Source of the DNA: Geodermatophilus sabuli
GTDB lineage: Bacteria; Actinomycetota; Actinomycetes; Mycobacteriales; Geodermatophilaceae
DNA length: 64,000 bases
Direction: 5' to 3'
Assembly (NCBI RefSeq): GCF_900215145.1
Contig: NZ_OBDO01000002.1
Coordinates: 372,001 to 436,000, forward strand
Shown here: piece after piece, positions 21,465 to 49,600 of the stretch
Layout: every line of letters begins with the position of its first letter
How positions within the stretch are numbered: the stretch's first letter is position 1
Program-made: the position numbers and the translations under genes
The notes under the pieces: model-generated
The model's database searches: none
The model's input: the letters and a program-made list of their open reading frames with translations, nothing else
Told to the model about the DNA's origin: nothing

Positions 21465-21854
21465 GTGATCATCGGGGTCGGGATCGACGTCGTGCCCGTG
21501 GAGCGGTTCGCCGAGTCGCTGACCCGCACACCCGGGCTGCGCAACCGGCTGTTCACCGCGGCCGAGCAGAGCACGCCGTCCGGCGCGCCGCGGACCGGGG
21601 AGTCGTTGGCCGCCCGCTTCGCCGCCAAGGAGGCCCTGGCCAAGGCCCTCGGCGCGCCCGGCGACCTGCGCTGGCACGACGCCGAGGTCACCGTCGGCGA
21701 GCACGGCCGGCCGCACCTGGAGGTCCGCGGCAGCGTGGCCGGGCGGGCCGCCCAGCTGGGCGTGAGCTCCTGGCACGTGTCGCTGAGCCACGACGGCGGC
21801 ATCGCCTCGGCCGTGGTGGTCGCGGAGGGCTTCCACCGCGGGGGCGACTCGTGA
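21465..21854 (+). CDS. acpS: Holo-[acyl-carrier-protein] synthase
   Basis: A 129-residue AcpS that attaches 4'-phosphopantetheine to the fatty-acid acyl carrier protein. The start [17 protein letters not shown] contains the metal-binding GIDVV, and [14 protein letters not shown] is the second signature; [17 protein letters not shown] is the C-terminal motif. It is distinct from the Sfp-type enzyme at 48255. First gene of an overlapping chain to tsaE. Confidence 0.94.
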
Positions 21855-44539: not shown

Positions 44540-45316
44540 TCAGCCCGTGTGCACCACGTGGAAGCCCTCGCCCAGGCGGCCCTCGGGCAGGCCGAGGCGG
44601 CGGCCGGTCTCCCGCATCCAGCCGGTCACGAACTCCTCGAGGTCGTCGAGGTGGCCGACCTGGCTGACGTGGCTCGTGAGTGCGGCGAACTTGAGTTCCA
44701 GCACGTCGGTGACGTCGACGACGTGGTCGGCGCGCGGGCTGGCGGTCAGCCAGACCTCCTCGACCGTCCACGCCTCCAGCCCCTCCTCGGCGAGCAGCTC
44801 GGGGAAGGCGAAGGGGTTGCGGGCGTCGGGGTAGACCGCCCGCAGCGTCGACTCACCGACGGTCATGTGGTCGGGGTGGCTGGCGGCGACCCGCTCCCAG
44901 AACCGCTCCGGGGAGCTGGTCAGCACCCGCTGCGGCCGGACCTGCCGGATCACCCGGCTGATGTCGCGCCGCAGGTCCAGGGTCAGCTCCAGCCGCCCGT
45001 CGGGGTAGCCGAGGAACCGGACGTCGGACACGCCGACCGCCTTGGCCGCCGCCTCCTGCTCGGCGCGCCGCAGCGGGCCCATCTGGTCGCGGGGGGTGTC
45101 GTCGAAACCGCCGGCGTCGCCGTCGGTGACGATGAGGTAGGTGACCTCGGTGCCGGCCGCGGTCCACGTGGCGACGGTCCCGGAGCTGCCGAAGTCGATG
45201 TCGTCGGGGTGGGCGAGCACGCACAGGACGCGCTCGACGTGCTGGGAGGGCTGTCGCGGTTCAGGCGGGGGCACTCGTGGGAGCGTAGTGAGGGGCTGGC
45301 GGCGGTGCGCCGTCAC
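44540..45316 (-). CDS. PIG-L/LmbE-family deacetylase
   Basis: A 258-residue zinc deacetylase-like protein. The metal motif AHPDDIDFGSSGTVATW comes first, then VTDGDAGGFDDTP, VRFLGYPDGRLE and ASHPDHMTVGE with a further metal histidine. Related enzymes (MshB, Mca, LmbE, GlcNAc-PI deacetylase) remove acyl groups from amino sugars or cleave amides. The GTG at 45316 overlaps the synthetase stop by 4 bases; GTG at 45274 would match the domain better. Third gene of the phosphopantetheinyl transferase operon, so its substrate may be the product of the synthetase. Confidence 0.85.
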   Translation of the reverse strand: MTAHRRQPLTTLPRVPPPEPRQPSQHVERVLCVLAHPDDIDFGSSGTVATWTAAGTEVTYLIVTDGDAGGFDDTPRDQMGPLRRAEQEAAAKAVGVSDVRFLGYPDGRLELTLDLRRDISRVIRQVRPQRVLTSSPERFWERVAASHPDHMTVGESTLRAVYPDARNPFAFPELLAEEGLEAWTVEEVWLTASPRADHVVDVTDVLELKFAALTSHVSQVGHLDDLEEFVTGWMRETGRRLGLPEGRLGEGFHVVHTG

Positions 45317-48258
45317 GCGAGCGTGGCCGACAGGCGGCGGGCCAGCTCGAGGACGTGCGGGTGGGCCAGCACGCTGTTGTGGTCGGCGGGGATCTCCGTG
45401 ACCAGGAGGTGCGGGGCCGCCCGGCGCCAGGCCGCGAGCGTGTTGCCCACCACGGGGAGGCGTCGGGCCGCCTGGAAGTACGTCACCGCCCCGTCGTAGG
45501 GCGTGAGCCGGTGGGCGTTGTACGTGGTCGACGACCGGAGCCACGCGGCTTCCTCGGGGTCGGCGTGCTCGCCGGTCAGGCGCAGGTGCAGCTGCTCGGT
45601 CAGCCGTGCGGGGGAGCGCAGGGTGTCCCAGCGGCCCGCCCACCGGCGCGCGGCCGCCTCGCGGGGTGTCAGGCTCGCCGTGGGCGGGAGGGCGTCGACG
45701 AGGCCGAGGAAGGCGACGGGGTGCCCCGCGGCCCTGAGCCGGCACGCCACCTCGTAGACCAGCAGCCCGCCGAACGAGTAGCCGACCAGGCTGTGCGGTC
45801 CCGTCGGCTGGACAGTCAGCAGCTGACCGGTGGTGTCGTCGGCGAGCTCGGCGATGCTGCGCCGCCGGCCGTCGCCGTCGCTCAGCGCCGGCTGCACGCC
45901 GTACACGGGCCGGTCGGTCTCGAGGGCGACGACGAGTGCCTGCAGCTCGTTGAGCTGCCCCCATGCGTCACAGGCGAGGAAGACCGGCCGACCGGTGCCG
46001 GGCCGCAGGAGCTGGACCCCGGTGGTCTCGCCCCGGGGGCTCTGCTCGATCGTCCGTGCCAGCCCCTGGAGGGTCGGGTCGGCGTAGAAGGTCAGGATCT
46101 GCACATCCACGCCCAGGTCGAGCTTCACCCGGCGCAGGAGGCTCATCACCTGCCGGGACGAGCCGCCCAGGTCCATGAAGTCGTCGTCCGGCCGCGTGTC
46201 GGCGGTGCCGAGGACCTCCCGCCAGATCCGCGCCAGGGGCTCCGGCACGGAGACGCCTGCCGCGGCCCGGGGGACGGCGGTGCTGTGCCCGGGCCCGGGG
46301 GCGGGCTCATCGGAGCCCGCCGCGCGCTCGACGGCAGCCCGGATGACGGCCAGACACCCCGGGTTGCGCAGCGCCGCCTCGTTGGCGACCACGTCGCCGT
46401 TGACCGCGTCACGGGCGGCCCGTTCGGAGGCCTTGCCGTTGTGGGTCACCGGCAGCTCGGGGACCGCCAGCACCAGGGACGGCACGTGCGCGGGGGACGC
46501 GTTGCGCCGGAGGGCGCGGCGGATCCTCCGCTCCAGCTCGCCGTCGAGGGCGGCTCCCGGCTGCAGCACCACGAGCAGGACCATCCGGGTCCGGCCCGGG
46601 GCGGAGGCGTCCCGCTGCTCGACGGCCATGGCGCTGGTGATCTCGGTGACCTCGTGCAGGGCCGTGTAGACCTCGCTGGGGCCGATCCGCACGCCGTTGA
46701 CGTTGAGCACCCCGTCGGAGCGGCCGTGCATGCGGGCCGAGCCGTCCGGGCCGAACTCCACGAGGTCGCCGTGGGTCCACACCCCGGCGTGCTGGGAGAA
46801 GTACGCGCGGTGGAAGCGGGAGCCGTCCGGGTCCTGGAGGAAGCCGATCGGTCGTGACGGGAACGGCCGGCGGCAGACCAGTTCACCCACCTCGCCGGCG
46901 ACCTCCCGGCCGTCCGGGTCGACGGCGACGACGTCCAGGCCGAGGCTGCGCGTCTGGCACCGGCCCGGGCTGACGGGCAGCTCGGGGTGGCCGAGGACGA
47001 AGCAGCCGAGGATGTCGGTGCCCCCCGAGATCGACTGCAGCGGCTGGGGTCCCACCGCCCGGGCCACCCACTCGAACTGCCAGTCGTGCAGGACGGCACC
47101 GGTGGACAGCACGGCGCGCAGGTGGCTCAGGTCGTACTCGTCCGCGGGCCGGTGGCCGGCGTCCTGGCACAGCTGGAGGTAGGTGGGGCTCGTCCCGAAC
47201 ACGGTCACGCGTTCGTCGGCGACGATCCGCCAGAGGGTCTCGGGTCCGTGGACGGGGCCGTCGTAGACGACGACCGATGCGCCGACCGCCAGCGCGGACA
47301 GCTGCCAGTTCCACATCATCCAGGCGGTGGTGGTGTGGAAGTACATGCGGTCCGCGGGCCGGAGGTCGCCGTGCAGGCGGTGCTCCTTGAGGTGCTCGAG
47401 CAACGCGCCACCCGCCCCGTGGACGATCGCCTTGGGCGGTCCGGTCGTGCCCGACGAGAACATCACGAACAGCGGGTGGTCGAACGGCAGCCGTGGCCAG
47501 TCCGGGCGCGGGGCACCCGCCGCGGCCGCGACCAGGTCGGGAAGGCGGGTCGCCGGGGCGTCACCCACGGGCAGCTCGTCGAGGAGCACGAGGCGGCGCA
47601 CCGTCGGGAGGCCGGCCAGCAACGCCGAGGTGCCCTCTTCGGGTCCTCCGTGCAGGCCGTTCCGGTCGAGCAGCAGCAGCTGGGCCTCCACCTGCTGGAA
47701 GCGGCCGAGGAGCGCGGCCGTGCCGACGTCCGGCGTCGACGTCGCGACGACGGCACCCAGGGACGCCGCCGCCAGGACGGCCACCGCCACGGTGGCGTTG
47801 TTCGGCGCCACCGCGAGGACCCGGCTGCCGACTCCGATCCCGGCGTCGGCCAGCGCGGCGGCGGTCACGCCGACCGCCTCGCGCAGCTCCCGCCGGCTGA
47901 GGCGCTCCGCCGGCCGGTCGGCGTGCAGCGACGTCAGCGCGGGGGCCTCGTCGTCCACCCCCGGCAGCGGGCGCAGCAGGGCCTCGACGTAGTTGAGGCG
48001 CACCTCGGGGAAGAAGCGCGCTCCCTCGACGTCATCGCCGACGACCGTCGGCTCGGGGCTGCCCGACCACGGCAGGCCCGACCACTCGAGGAGGGTGCGC
48101 CAGAACGCGTCGCCCTCCCGGATCGAGAAGTCGTGGAACGCCAACGGCGAGCCGAGGGGGCGGCCCGCGAGCTCCTCGCAGCGCGCACGGAACTCCGCCC
48201 ACTGGGAGGTCCGGGGTTCCTCTCCCGCTGGGGTGGACGCGGTGACCGTCGCCGTCAT
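45313..48258 (-). CDS. NRPS-like synthetase: acetoacetyl-CoA-synthetase-like adenylation, carrier, thioesterase
   Basis: A 981-residue three-domain enzyme. Residues about 15-650 resemble acetoacetyl-CoA synthetase: FHDFSIREGDAFWRTLLEWS, SSGTTG at 268-273, HTTTAWMMWNWQLSALAVGA, SISGGTDILGCFVLG, GRSDGVLNVNGVRIGPSEVY and HNGKASE with the C-terminal lysine. A carrier domain follows (about 680-750), with DFMDLGGSSRQ and phosphopantetheine Ser near 701. The thioesterase (about 765-975) has GYSFGG (Ser828), LVDALPP and PADHNSVLAHP. There is no condensation or ketosynthase domain. The activated acid may be a keto or hydroxy acid (inference). The ATG overlaps the upstream transferase gene by ATGA. Confidence 0.88.
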   Translation of the reverse strand: MTATVTASTPAGEEPRTSQWAEFRARCEELAGRPLGSPLAFHDFSIREGDAFWRTLLEWSGLPWSGSPEPTVVGDDVEGARFFPEVRLNYVEALLRPLPGVDDEAPALTSLHADRPAERLSRRELREAVGVTAAALADAGIGVGSRVLAVAPNNATVAVAVLAAASLGAVVATSTPDVGTAALLGRFQQVEAQLLLLDRNGLHGGPEEGTSALLAGLPTVRRLVLLDELPVGDAPATRLPDLVAAAAGAPRPDWPRLPFDHPLFVMFSSGTTGPPKAIVHGAGGALLEHLKEHRLHGDLRPADRMYFHTTTAWMMWNWQLSALAVGASVVVYDGPVHGPETLWRIVADERVTVFGTSPTYLQLCQDAGHRPADEYDLSHLRAVLSTGAVLHDWQFEWVARAVGPQPLQSISGGTDILGCFVLGHPELPVSPGRCQTRSLGLDVVAVDPDGREVAGEVGELVCRRPFPSRPIGFLQDPDGSRFHRAYFSQHAGVWTHGDLVEFGPDGSARMHGRSDGVLNVNGVRIGPSEVYTALHEVTEITSAMAVEQRDASAPGRTRMVLLVVLQPGAALDGELERRIRRALRRNASPAHVPSLVLAVPELPVTHNGKASERAARDAVNGDVVANEAALRNPGCLAVIRAAVERAAGSDEPAPGPGHSTAVPRAAAGVSVPEPLARIWREVLGTADTRPDDDFMDLGGSSRQVMSLLRRVKLDLGVDVQILTFYADPTLQGLARTIEQSPRGETTGVQLLRPGTGRPVFLACDAWGQLNELQALVVALETDRPVYGVQPALSDGDGRRRSIAELADDTTGQLLTVQPTGPHSLVGYSFGGLLVYEVACRLRAAGHPVAFLGLVDALPPTASLTPREAAARRWAGRWDTLRSPARLTEQLHLRLTGEHADPEEAAWLRSSTTYNAHRLTPYDGAVTYFQAARRLPVVGNTLAAWRRAAPHLLVTEIPADHNSVLAHPHVLELARRLSATLA

Positions 48259-49022
48259 GAGCGAACACCCTTCTCCAGTGACCAGATGCCGTGACCGAGC
48301 ACGCGAGGCGCGAGGGGGCGACGGCGCCGCGCGACCCGACGCGAGGTGGCGAGGCTCGCGACGAACCCGACCGGTACGGGGACGGCGACGACGTGCCAGC
48401 GGCCCACCCTGCGCTCCGATCCCTCCCCGGTGCCGGTGTCGACCAGCCGGGGTGGCGTCGCGATCCCGGACCCGGACGCCTTCAGCACGGCCTCCTTCAC
48501 CGTCCAGGTCCGCGCTGCGACTCGAGCCCGCTGCGGTTCTCCGAGCACGGCGATGGCGCCCGCCTCCCGGTCGGTGAGCCAGCCCTCGTCCCGGGTGTCC
48601 GGCGTCCACGGGCCCACCTGCTCGAGGTCGATCCCGACCTGCGTCCCGCGCCCGAGGACCACCAGCCCGAGGTCGGCGCTGGCCGCGCAGCTGACGTCGA
48701 GGCTCCGCGCGCCGGGGACCGTGGCCGGTACGAACGGGCGTCCGGCCGGCGTCAGTGACAGGGGGACGCGGCTCGGCGTGCAGGAGAGCTCCGCCGCGAT
48801 CACGCACCGTAACGCCGCTCGAAGGGCGATGCGGCGCCGACGCACGGCGGGTGTGCCGCGGTCGGCGCGACTCAGCTCCGCGTCGGTGAGTGCGGTCGCG
48901 GCCCGGGCCAGTGTGGACTCGTCGGGCCCGAGGTCGACCAGCCAGACGTCGACGGGCGGGCGCCGGGGCCGTCCGAGCACAGCACTGCGTGCAGTGCCGT
49001 CACTGACCGTGAGGTTCGGCAT
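48255..49022 (-). CDS. Sfp-type 4'-phosphopantetheinyl transferase
   Basis: A 255-residue transferase. The Mg-binding GIDLEQVGPW and the catalytic WTVKEAVLKASGSG are the two signatures of the family; PLSLTPAGRPFVPA is the P1-type motif. It should activate the carrier domain of the synthetase encoded next, whose ATG overlaps this gene's TGA. The start MPNLTVSDGTARSAVLGRPR at 49022 lies near a 300-base non-coding region. First gene of the operon. Confidence 0.9.
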   Translation of the reverse strand: MPNLTVSDGTARSAVLGRPRRPPVDVWLVDLGPDESTLARAATALTDAELSRADRGTPAVRRRRIALRAALRCVIAAELSCTPSRVPLSLTPAGRPFVPATVPGARSLDVSCAASADLGLVVLGRGTQVGIDLEQVGPWTPDTRDEGWLTDREAGAIAVLGEPQRARVAARTWTVKEAVLKASGSGIATPPRLVDTGTGEGSERRVGRWHVVAVPVPVGFVASLATSRRVARRRRPLAPRVLGHGIWSLEKGVRS

Positions 49023-49177: not shown

Positions 49178-49321
49178 TCGCCGGGGGCGTTCGCGGCGGC
49201 CCGCACTCCGTACGCGGCCCTGTGGGCCGGCTCGGACGACGTCACCCTGCTCGGCGCCTGGGGGCCGGTCGAGCAGGGCCACGCCGACGTGACGACGACG
49301 TTCCGGTGGGTGGATCCGCGT
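49178..49321 (+). pseudogene. Fragment of a SnoaL-like (ketosteroid-isomerase fold) gene
   Basis: In one frame the bases 49211-49315 read YAALWAGSDDVTLLGAWGPV, then EQGHADVTTTFRWVDPRS, closely resembling the middle of SnoaL_3/DUF4440 proteins (ALWS-x-DDVTLFGAWGP-x-GW-x-FRWVASRF). No start codon or remaining 5' and 3' parts fit, and the frame runs into the antisense of the chorismate mutase gene. Probably a decayed remnant. The surrounding 49023-49177 holds nothing recognisable apart from the expected promoter of the transferase operon. Confidence 0.55.
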
Positions 49322-49600
49322 TCAGAGACGGCCGCGGCCCTGGCGGAGCAGCATCATCCCGAGGATCGCGCCGTCACGGCCGAGCGCCTCCTGGAACCGG
49401 GCGAGCACCTGCTGCTCGCGGGCCAGCGACAGGCGGGTGCCGCCCGCGGTGCGGCGCAGCTCACCGATCTCCTGCGACACGGACAGCCGGCGCCGGACGA
49501 GGTCGATGAGGGCGGCGTCGCAGGCGTCGATCTCCTCGCGGAGCTCGGAGATGCGCACGTCGGTGTCGGTCGCGGCCGTGGTGGGGAGCGTGGCGGTCAT
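49322..49600 (-). CDS. Chorismate mutase (AroQ class)
   Basis: A 92-residue all-helical chorismate mutase converting chorismate to prephenate, the branch point to Phe and Tyr. RISELREEIDACDAALIDLV, RRRLSVSQEIGELRRTAGG and the arginine-lined ALGRDGAILGMMLLRQGRGRL match M. tuberculosis Rv0948c (AroQ delta). Such enzymes are usually stimulated by contact with DAHP synthase. The ATG at 49600 follows a terminator and a leader peptide, so the gene is probably regulated by aromatic amino-acid supply. Located beside pcrA, as in Mycobacterium. Confidence 0.92.
   Translation of the reverse strand: MTATLPTTAATDTDVRISELREEIDACDAALIDLVRRRLSVSQEIGELRRTAGGTRLSLAREQQVLARFQEALGRDGAILGMMLLRQGRGRL

Follow-up and report, generated by a model that had tools for sequence, protein, structure and literature searches.

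What is made at a locus of Geodermatophilus sabuli where a phosphopantetheinyl transferase, a large carrier-bearing enzyme and a PIG-L family deacetylase follow one another on the minus strand, and do all three genes belong to one pathway? The window, meaning the whole stretch of 64,000 nucleotides that was analysed (G+C ~74%), comes from a genome of 5.5 Mb, and the original prediction had read the three genes as a single unit. We find a unit of two genes, and the three-gene pathway is not upheld. The first gene encodes a 255-residue Sfp/HetI-like 4'-phosphopantetheinyl transferase (PPTase; 48255..49022, minus strand), and it shares an ATGA overlap with the start of the second, which encodes a 981-residue synthase (45313..48258, minus strand; start ATG at 48258, stop ending at 45313). 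This predicted overlap is well borne out: of 26 Geodermatophilaceae loci (25 regions from relatives plus the window), 24 have a PPTase-family gene adjoining the synthase, and a 4-base overlap recurs at 20 of these 24 pairs. The part of the prediction that failed is the deacetylase as a member joined by GTGA.

The deacetylase (44540..45274, minus strand; Pfam PIG-L, E 5.4e-30) is, judging from synteny, a bystander that belongs to the neighbourhood of a type II chorismate mutase (49322..49600, minus strand; Pfam CM_2, 3e-11). Orthologues with 81-87% identity are found in all 16 same-genus relatives searched, in each case on the strand of the chorismate mutase and within ~2.3 kb of it, and the placement is the same in five of them (G003, G006, G012, G014 and G016) for which no full-length synthase stands among the matches listed. 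The two genes are also adjacent in G040 and G042, which represent two further families of the order; matches to the chorismate mutase itself occur in 27/27 genomes searched. The proposed GTGA link relies on a GTG that overlaps the synthase stop at 45316, and it is spurious because the gene starts, by homology, at GTG 45274, 38 bases past that stop and 7 bases past a TACGCT box (45282..45287, minus strand) that is conserved as TAGGCT or TACGCT in 16/16 relatives. Such a box presumably fits the -10 promoter pattern, and we read it as the -10 element of a putative leaderless promoter of the PIG-L gene. At the clustering threshold, no match to the window PIG-L was found in the other 25 synthase regions. 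Scored against the NCBIfam models BshB2, BshB1, MshB and Mca, the deacetylase reaches 92.5, 83.6, 52.7 and 46.7 bits, each under the respective cut-off.

The gap between chorismate mutase and PIG-L is a variable spot among Geodermatophilus, with different gene sets at L146, L152, L153, L156, L160, L172, L179 and L182; some relatives hold a SnoaL-like gene there, others a sigma-70-type gene and one of the carboxymuconolactone-decarboxylase family. In the window a remnant of a SnoaL-like gene, cut at both ends, persists between the PPTase and chorismate mutase genes, at 49208..49321 on the plus strand (residues 26-63 of 135; tblastn 26/38 identical, E 2e-12), and the gene is complete at the equivalent place in two relatives (loci L172 and L179, genomes G005 and G013; Pfam SnoaL_3/DUF4440 in L172). 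Given that this remnant survives, it would appear that part of the spot gave way to the PPTase-synthase pair or to a larger exchange in which the pair arrived.

The synthase carries the domains that had been predicted for it and no others: Pfam at E 0.001 gives four families only, AMP-binding (106-465), AMP-binding_C (532-609), PP-binding (675-737) and Thioesterase (759-862), in keeping with the claim that condensation and ketosynthase domains are absent. The adenylation part (residues 13-640; 46339..48222, minus strand) is of the acetoacetyl-CoA-synthetase (AacS) type and not of the amino-acid type. It passes the NCBIfam equivalog for acetoacetate--CoA ligase, TIGR01217, with 600.7 bits against a curated cut-off of 520.9, and its closest solved structure is the acetoacetate-CoA ligase 4wd1 (E 2.2e-124), which we take to be from Streptomyces lividans; the amino-acid adenylation model gives the synthase 105.9 bits, far under its cut-off of 317.4. 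Resemblance to AacS thus extends over the whole length of the adenylation fold, whereas the fused carrier and terminal domain, the PPTase partner and a separate place in the tree set the synthase apart. The difference in size is equally plain, 981 residues with carrier and thioesterase (TE) against ~650 for free-standing AacS. A literature search, to which subscription papers were mostly out of reach, found no description of an AacS-type enzyme with adenylation, carrier and thioesterase domains (A-T-TE).

How far the family extends was assessed from a cluster of 112 proteins from 106 loci, reduced to 111 when a length cut removed one 845-residue protein, and to 85 distinct synthases once five ordinary A-T-TE proteins of 871-874 residues were taken out, along with rows that repeated an adenylation domain because a genome was included twice. 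A quick maximum-likelihood tree built from the adenylation domains does not place these 85 synthases among the free-standing AacS; they form a separate clade, and a single branch (SH-aLRT 100) divides them from the 24 AacS. The clade spans Actinomycetota, Pseudomonadota, Myxococcota and Verrucomicrobiota. From the named genome collection the best 80 of 201 relatives were kept, the more distant ones being set aside, and among these are Geodermatophilaceae, Cupriavidus, Paraburkholderia, Bradyrhizobium, Methylobacterium, Acetobacteraceae, Myxococcota, Verrucomicrobiota and others. In a survey that scored up to 13 candidates per genome, full-length synthases were present in at least 16 of 26 genomes of the genus (the window's genome included); 11 genomes from other genera of the family yielded at least two with a full-length synthase and at least one with an adenylation-carrier match, and in 24 other genomes of the order no full-length synthase was among the matches listed. 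In a sample of 396 genomes of the phylum, the window's own was the only one with a full-length match at E 1e-150. Synthase matches also occur in 14 plasmid records, in seven of which one place covers at least 80% of the query. On two of these plasmids, NZ_CP017759.1 and NZ_CP084267.1, the synthase is full-length and bears a carrier, yet its annotation reads acetoacetate--CoA ligase and assigns it to the mevalonate pathway, a label that is probably misleading for such proteins; a third plasmid record is unannotated.

Within the adenylation domain the clade combines an AacS-like frame with residues of its own. Lys609, which we take to be the catalytic lysine, is kept in 85/85 distinct synthases. 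At positions that we presume to line the acyl pocket of Acs, identified from earlier work on Acs and mapped onto the synthase by alignment, Met314, Met315, Thr386 and Gly412 match the AacS majority (16, 20, 22 and 24 of 24 AacS, respectively). Other positions differ: Arg469 is invariant (85/85) where 23/24 AacS have Met, Phe82 (85/85) replaces a Trp found in 24/24 AacS, and the clade is further set apart by Leu422 (85/85), Gln408 (84/85), Ser611 (83/85), Gln319 (81/85) and His/Gln308 (85/85), along with Val/Ile389, which is fixed or nearly so. Because these residues are near-uniform across phyla, they suggest that the whole clade uses one and the same altered acid, related to acetoacetate. We also considered whether loss of the CoA site could prove carrier loading, and rejected it. 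The loop aligned to Arg191/Arg194 of Acs, which we assume to be CoA-site residues, shows their sequence pattern in 4/16 AacS and in 0/111 synthase rows, and it varies even among AacS; Arg584, aligned to what we take to be a CoA contact of Acs, is present in the window synthase and in 42/85.

The remainder of the protein looks competent. The carrier domain (residues 675-737; 46048..46236, minus strand; Pfam 3.8e-12) has its serine, Ser701, in GGSSRQ, and the type-I TE domain (residues 759-981; 45316..45984, minus strand; Pfam 5.7e-17) has Ser828, Asp855 and His960, so that the carrier site and the triad are intact as first described. All four residues are invariant in 25 aligned sequences, the window included. 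The prediction would have suffered had most orthologues lost them; instead the carrier serine is kept in 85/85 synthases and the full triad in 72 of the 76 with a thioesterase-like terminal domain (Ser 73, Asp 76, His 72). The carrier-TE part was modelled with a mean pLDDT of 91.7, and its top Foldseek match is 3tej, the carrier-thioesterase didomain of EntF (enterobactin synthase component F; E 1.7e-21), followed by many Pks13 thioesterase chains, NocB and Vlm2. The window TE is predicted from this model to be a normal type-I TE, a fold compatible with hydrolysis, cyclisation or transfer alike. Although EntF and the synthase share this didomain and an intact triad, the synthase has no condensation domain and no amino-acid adenylation over cut-off, and a peptide product is not expected. 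Taken together, its sequence makes the protein probably a working AacS-type A-T-TE enzyme with a linked PPTase.

The family members vary at the C-terminus. Nine of the 85 synthases end in something other than a TE. In two Blastococcus proteins (L065 and L066) the terminal domain consists of hexapeptide repeats. Six alphaproteobacterial members have a GNAT-like end, an assignment that is weak, with one of four scanned just over the Pfam cut-off, two placed by alignment only, and a poor model (pLDDT 45.4). The Bradyrhizobium protein at L128 ends in an Antibiotic_NAT domain (1.4e-33); here an adenylation-carrier protein is fused to an aminoglycoside 3-N-acetyltransferase-type (AAC(3)) domain (L128:9965-13255), and a stretch between the carrier part and this domain resembles, by eye, a truncated GNAT-like end. 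Off-loading is evidently not always the work of the TE, because this domain lacks both Ser and His in three members (Klenkia, Blastococcus TF02A-30 and URHA0031) and His in a fourth (L083). The three without catalytic Ser and His, at L054, L084 and L106, nevertheless retain carrier and PPTase.

The PPTase was called dedicated in the original prediction, a reading that its linkage to the synthase supports. The protein is recognised by Pfam ACPS (1.7e-10; 41.3 bits, cut-off 25) and reaches 80.5 bits with NCBIfam HetI, under the cut-off of 370. Its sequence contains VGID and WTVKEAVLK, which we take to be PPTase motifs, and the form W-x-x-K-E-A-x-x-K recurs in the PPTase cluster, in 53 of its 57 distinct members, the window's included. 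Searching with a profile built from the PPTases of these loci, we found a PPTase frame within 3 kb of 55/85 synthases. Of these frames 52 share the strand of the synthase (42 upstream of it, 10 downstream), and three are on the opposite strand. No such frame lies within 3 kb at the other 30, which include all six with a GNAT-like end and L128, and some of these loci end near the gene. Because the same genome holds a second PPTase of the Sfp/HetI kind on another contig, as well as a holo-ACP synthase (21465-21854), the linked PPTase is probably dedicated by position and not by necessity.

Could neighbouring genes point to an acceptor? Of 40 loci of the Geodermatophilaceae type (one of them from a Pseudonocardia bin), 33 have polysaccharide-type genes within 10 kb, whereas in a small control set of 20 regions, taken from eight Geodermatophilus genomes, the figure is two, as counted with 12 Pfam-named probe families that were taken from the synthase loci themselves (among them Wzz, tyrosine phosphatase, polysaccharide deacetylase, cytidylyltransferase, WecG, UDP-sugar dehydrogenase, glycosyltransferases and sugar transferase). 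The count of 33/40 is inflated by shared descent: the synthase-PPTase pair stands beside mfd at 14 of 26 loci, a site that these loci probably share through descent. Polysaccharide genes are also found near copies away from mfd, on another contig or far from it (L027, L043, L044, L046, L048 and L040). The window copy has no such gene within 10 kb that the 12 probes could find, and outside the Geodermatophilaceae-type set only 5 of 45 loci have one. The synthase family is thus probably linked to extracellular polysaccharide in Geodermatophilaceae, though not at the window locus. In the window's genome mfd is on another contig, directly followed by a SurA-like gene, and the pair is missing from this site. 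At G002:C3 (L041) the synthase lies ~9 kb from mfd and yet belongs to the other paralogue clade, which implies that different lineages of the family have occupied the mfd region.

A few further features of the neighbourhoods deserve mention. A second, ordinary A-T-TE protein of 845-874 residues is encoded near the synthase at L044:12252-14876 and also at L027, L043, L069, L071 and L076; these loci carry glycosyltransferase genes, domains having been scanned in L044 alone. At L039 and L042 a thiamine-type cluster is the immediate neighbour of the synthase-PPTase pair (ThiG is identified by Pfam in L042, the other genes by eye). Among L079-L128, a comparison that also took in seven alphaproteobacterial loci, no third gene common across genera was seen by eye beside the unit; shared neighbours occur mainly within one genus, for example Cupriavidus or Paraburkholderia.

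We consider it about an even chance (roughly 0.5) that the two genes form a self-contained system for acyl loading and acyl transfer. The PPTase would attach the phosphopantetheine arm to the carrier, and the adenylation domain would activate with ATP a short acid, which we infer to be of the acetoacetate type; the activated acid would then be loaded onto the synthase's own carrier and not onto free CoA. In the window synthase the acyl group may move through an acyl-serine on the TE to an acceptor, while in some relatives a different terminal domain, mostly of the acyltransferase type, would perform the transfer. Hydrolysis by the TE of a simple loaded acid would waste ATP, suggesting that the TE either joins two acids or passes the acid on, and we favour transfer because nine of the 85 have another domain, mostly of the acyltransferase type, in place of the TE. 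The likeliest acceptor in Geodermatophilaceae would be the extracellular polysaccharide for which neighbouring genes are responsible, at the level of one of its sugars or precursors. A precedent for transfer by a TE exists in Pks13, whose TE moves a beta-ketoacyl chain to the sugar trehalose (PMC7261415). The Pks13 TE is among our structural matches; this similarity is generic, with 23-26% identity in the structural alignments and EntF ranking higher in Foldseek, and Pks13 differs in being a polyketide synthase whose TE handles very long mycolic chains.

The other outcome left to the TE, the joining of two acids, is the main competitor of acyl transfer and a possible, clearly less probable one: two identical keto acids would be loaded and the TE would join them into a furanone, pyrone or lactone. 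Fungal NRPS-like enzymes (atromentin, polyporic acid), which join two aromatic alpha-keto acids, and the bacterial RalA are likewise described as single A-T-TE modules without a condensation domain (PMC9047271, PMC10316625), and domain order and triad of the synthase are as in the fungal non-reducing members. That no third gene was seen with the unit across genera would also suit a product made by one enzyme. Compared with these descriptions, however, the window family differs in its AacS-type adenylation domain, which scores far under the amino-acid model's cut-off, in the overlapping PPTase gene and in the variable terminal domain. Nine of the 85 carry a different terminal domain, which weakens a furanone, quinone or lactone as the general rule and, like the three TEs without Ser and His, counts against condensation.

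It is unlikely, on the other hand, that the protein is an AacS with appended domains that still makes the free CoA ester while carrier and TE regulate or clean up. Such an enzyme would explain the score over the TIGR01217 cut-off, the name given to the two plasmid copies and the retention of Arg584, but the genome already has a separate AacS-like gene (G000:C9:24187-26127), the carrier serine is universal in a clade with its own fixed residues, and a PPTase frame is near in 55/85. Next to the closest free-standing AacS genes of eight other actinobacterial genomes no carrier or TE was seen by eye, and the surroundings of these genes are unrelated. Least probable by a wide margin is the three-gene pathway in which PIG-L modifies or releases the product: the shared strand and the GTG overlapping the synthase stop speak for it, against its constant place near chorismate mutase with or without a listed full-length synthase, its later start behind its own box, and the lack of a match to it, at the clustering threshold, in the other 25 synthase regions.

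Acyl loading followed by transfer, should it hold beyond this locus, would define a cross-phylum family with an AacS-like adenylation-carrier core, often its own PPTase, and interchangeable off-loading domains, in which a single protein performs carrier-bound keto-acylation of polysaccharide sugars; this wider proposal is tentative and rather doubtful. Independently of it, the name acetoacetate--CoA ligase, whose model the window protein passes, hides a multi-phylum family of carrier-bearing enzymes, and the PPTase-synthase pair is small enough for direct expression. If the transfer reading is true, each of these synthases would act as an acyl donor in a single protein, with the acceptor determined by a terminal domain that can be swapped, a property that would be useful for glycan and small-molecule chemistry.
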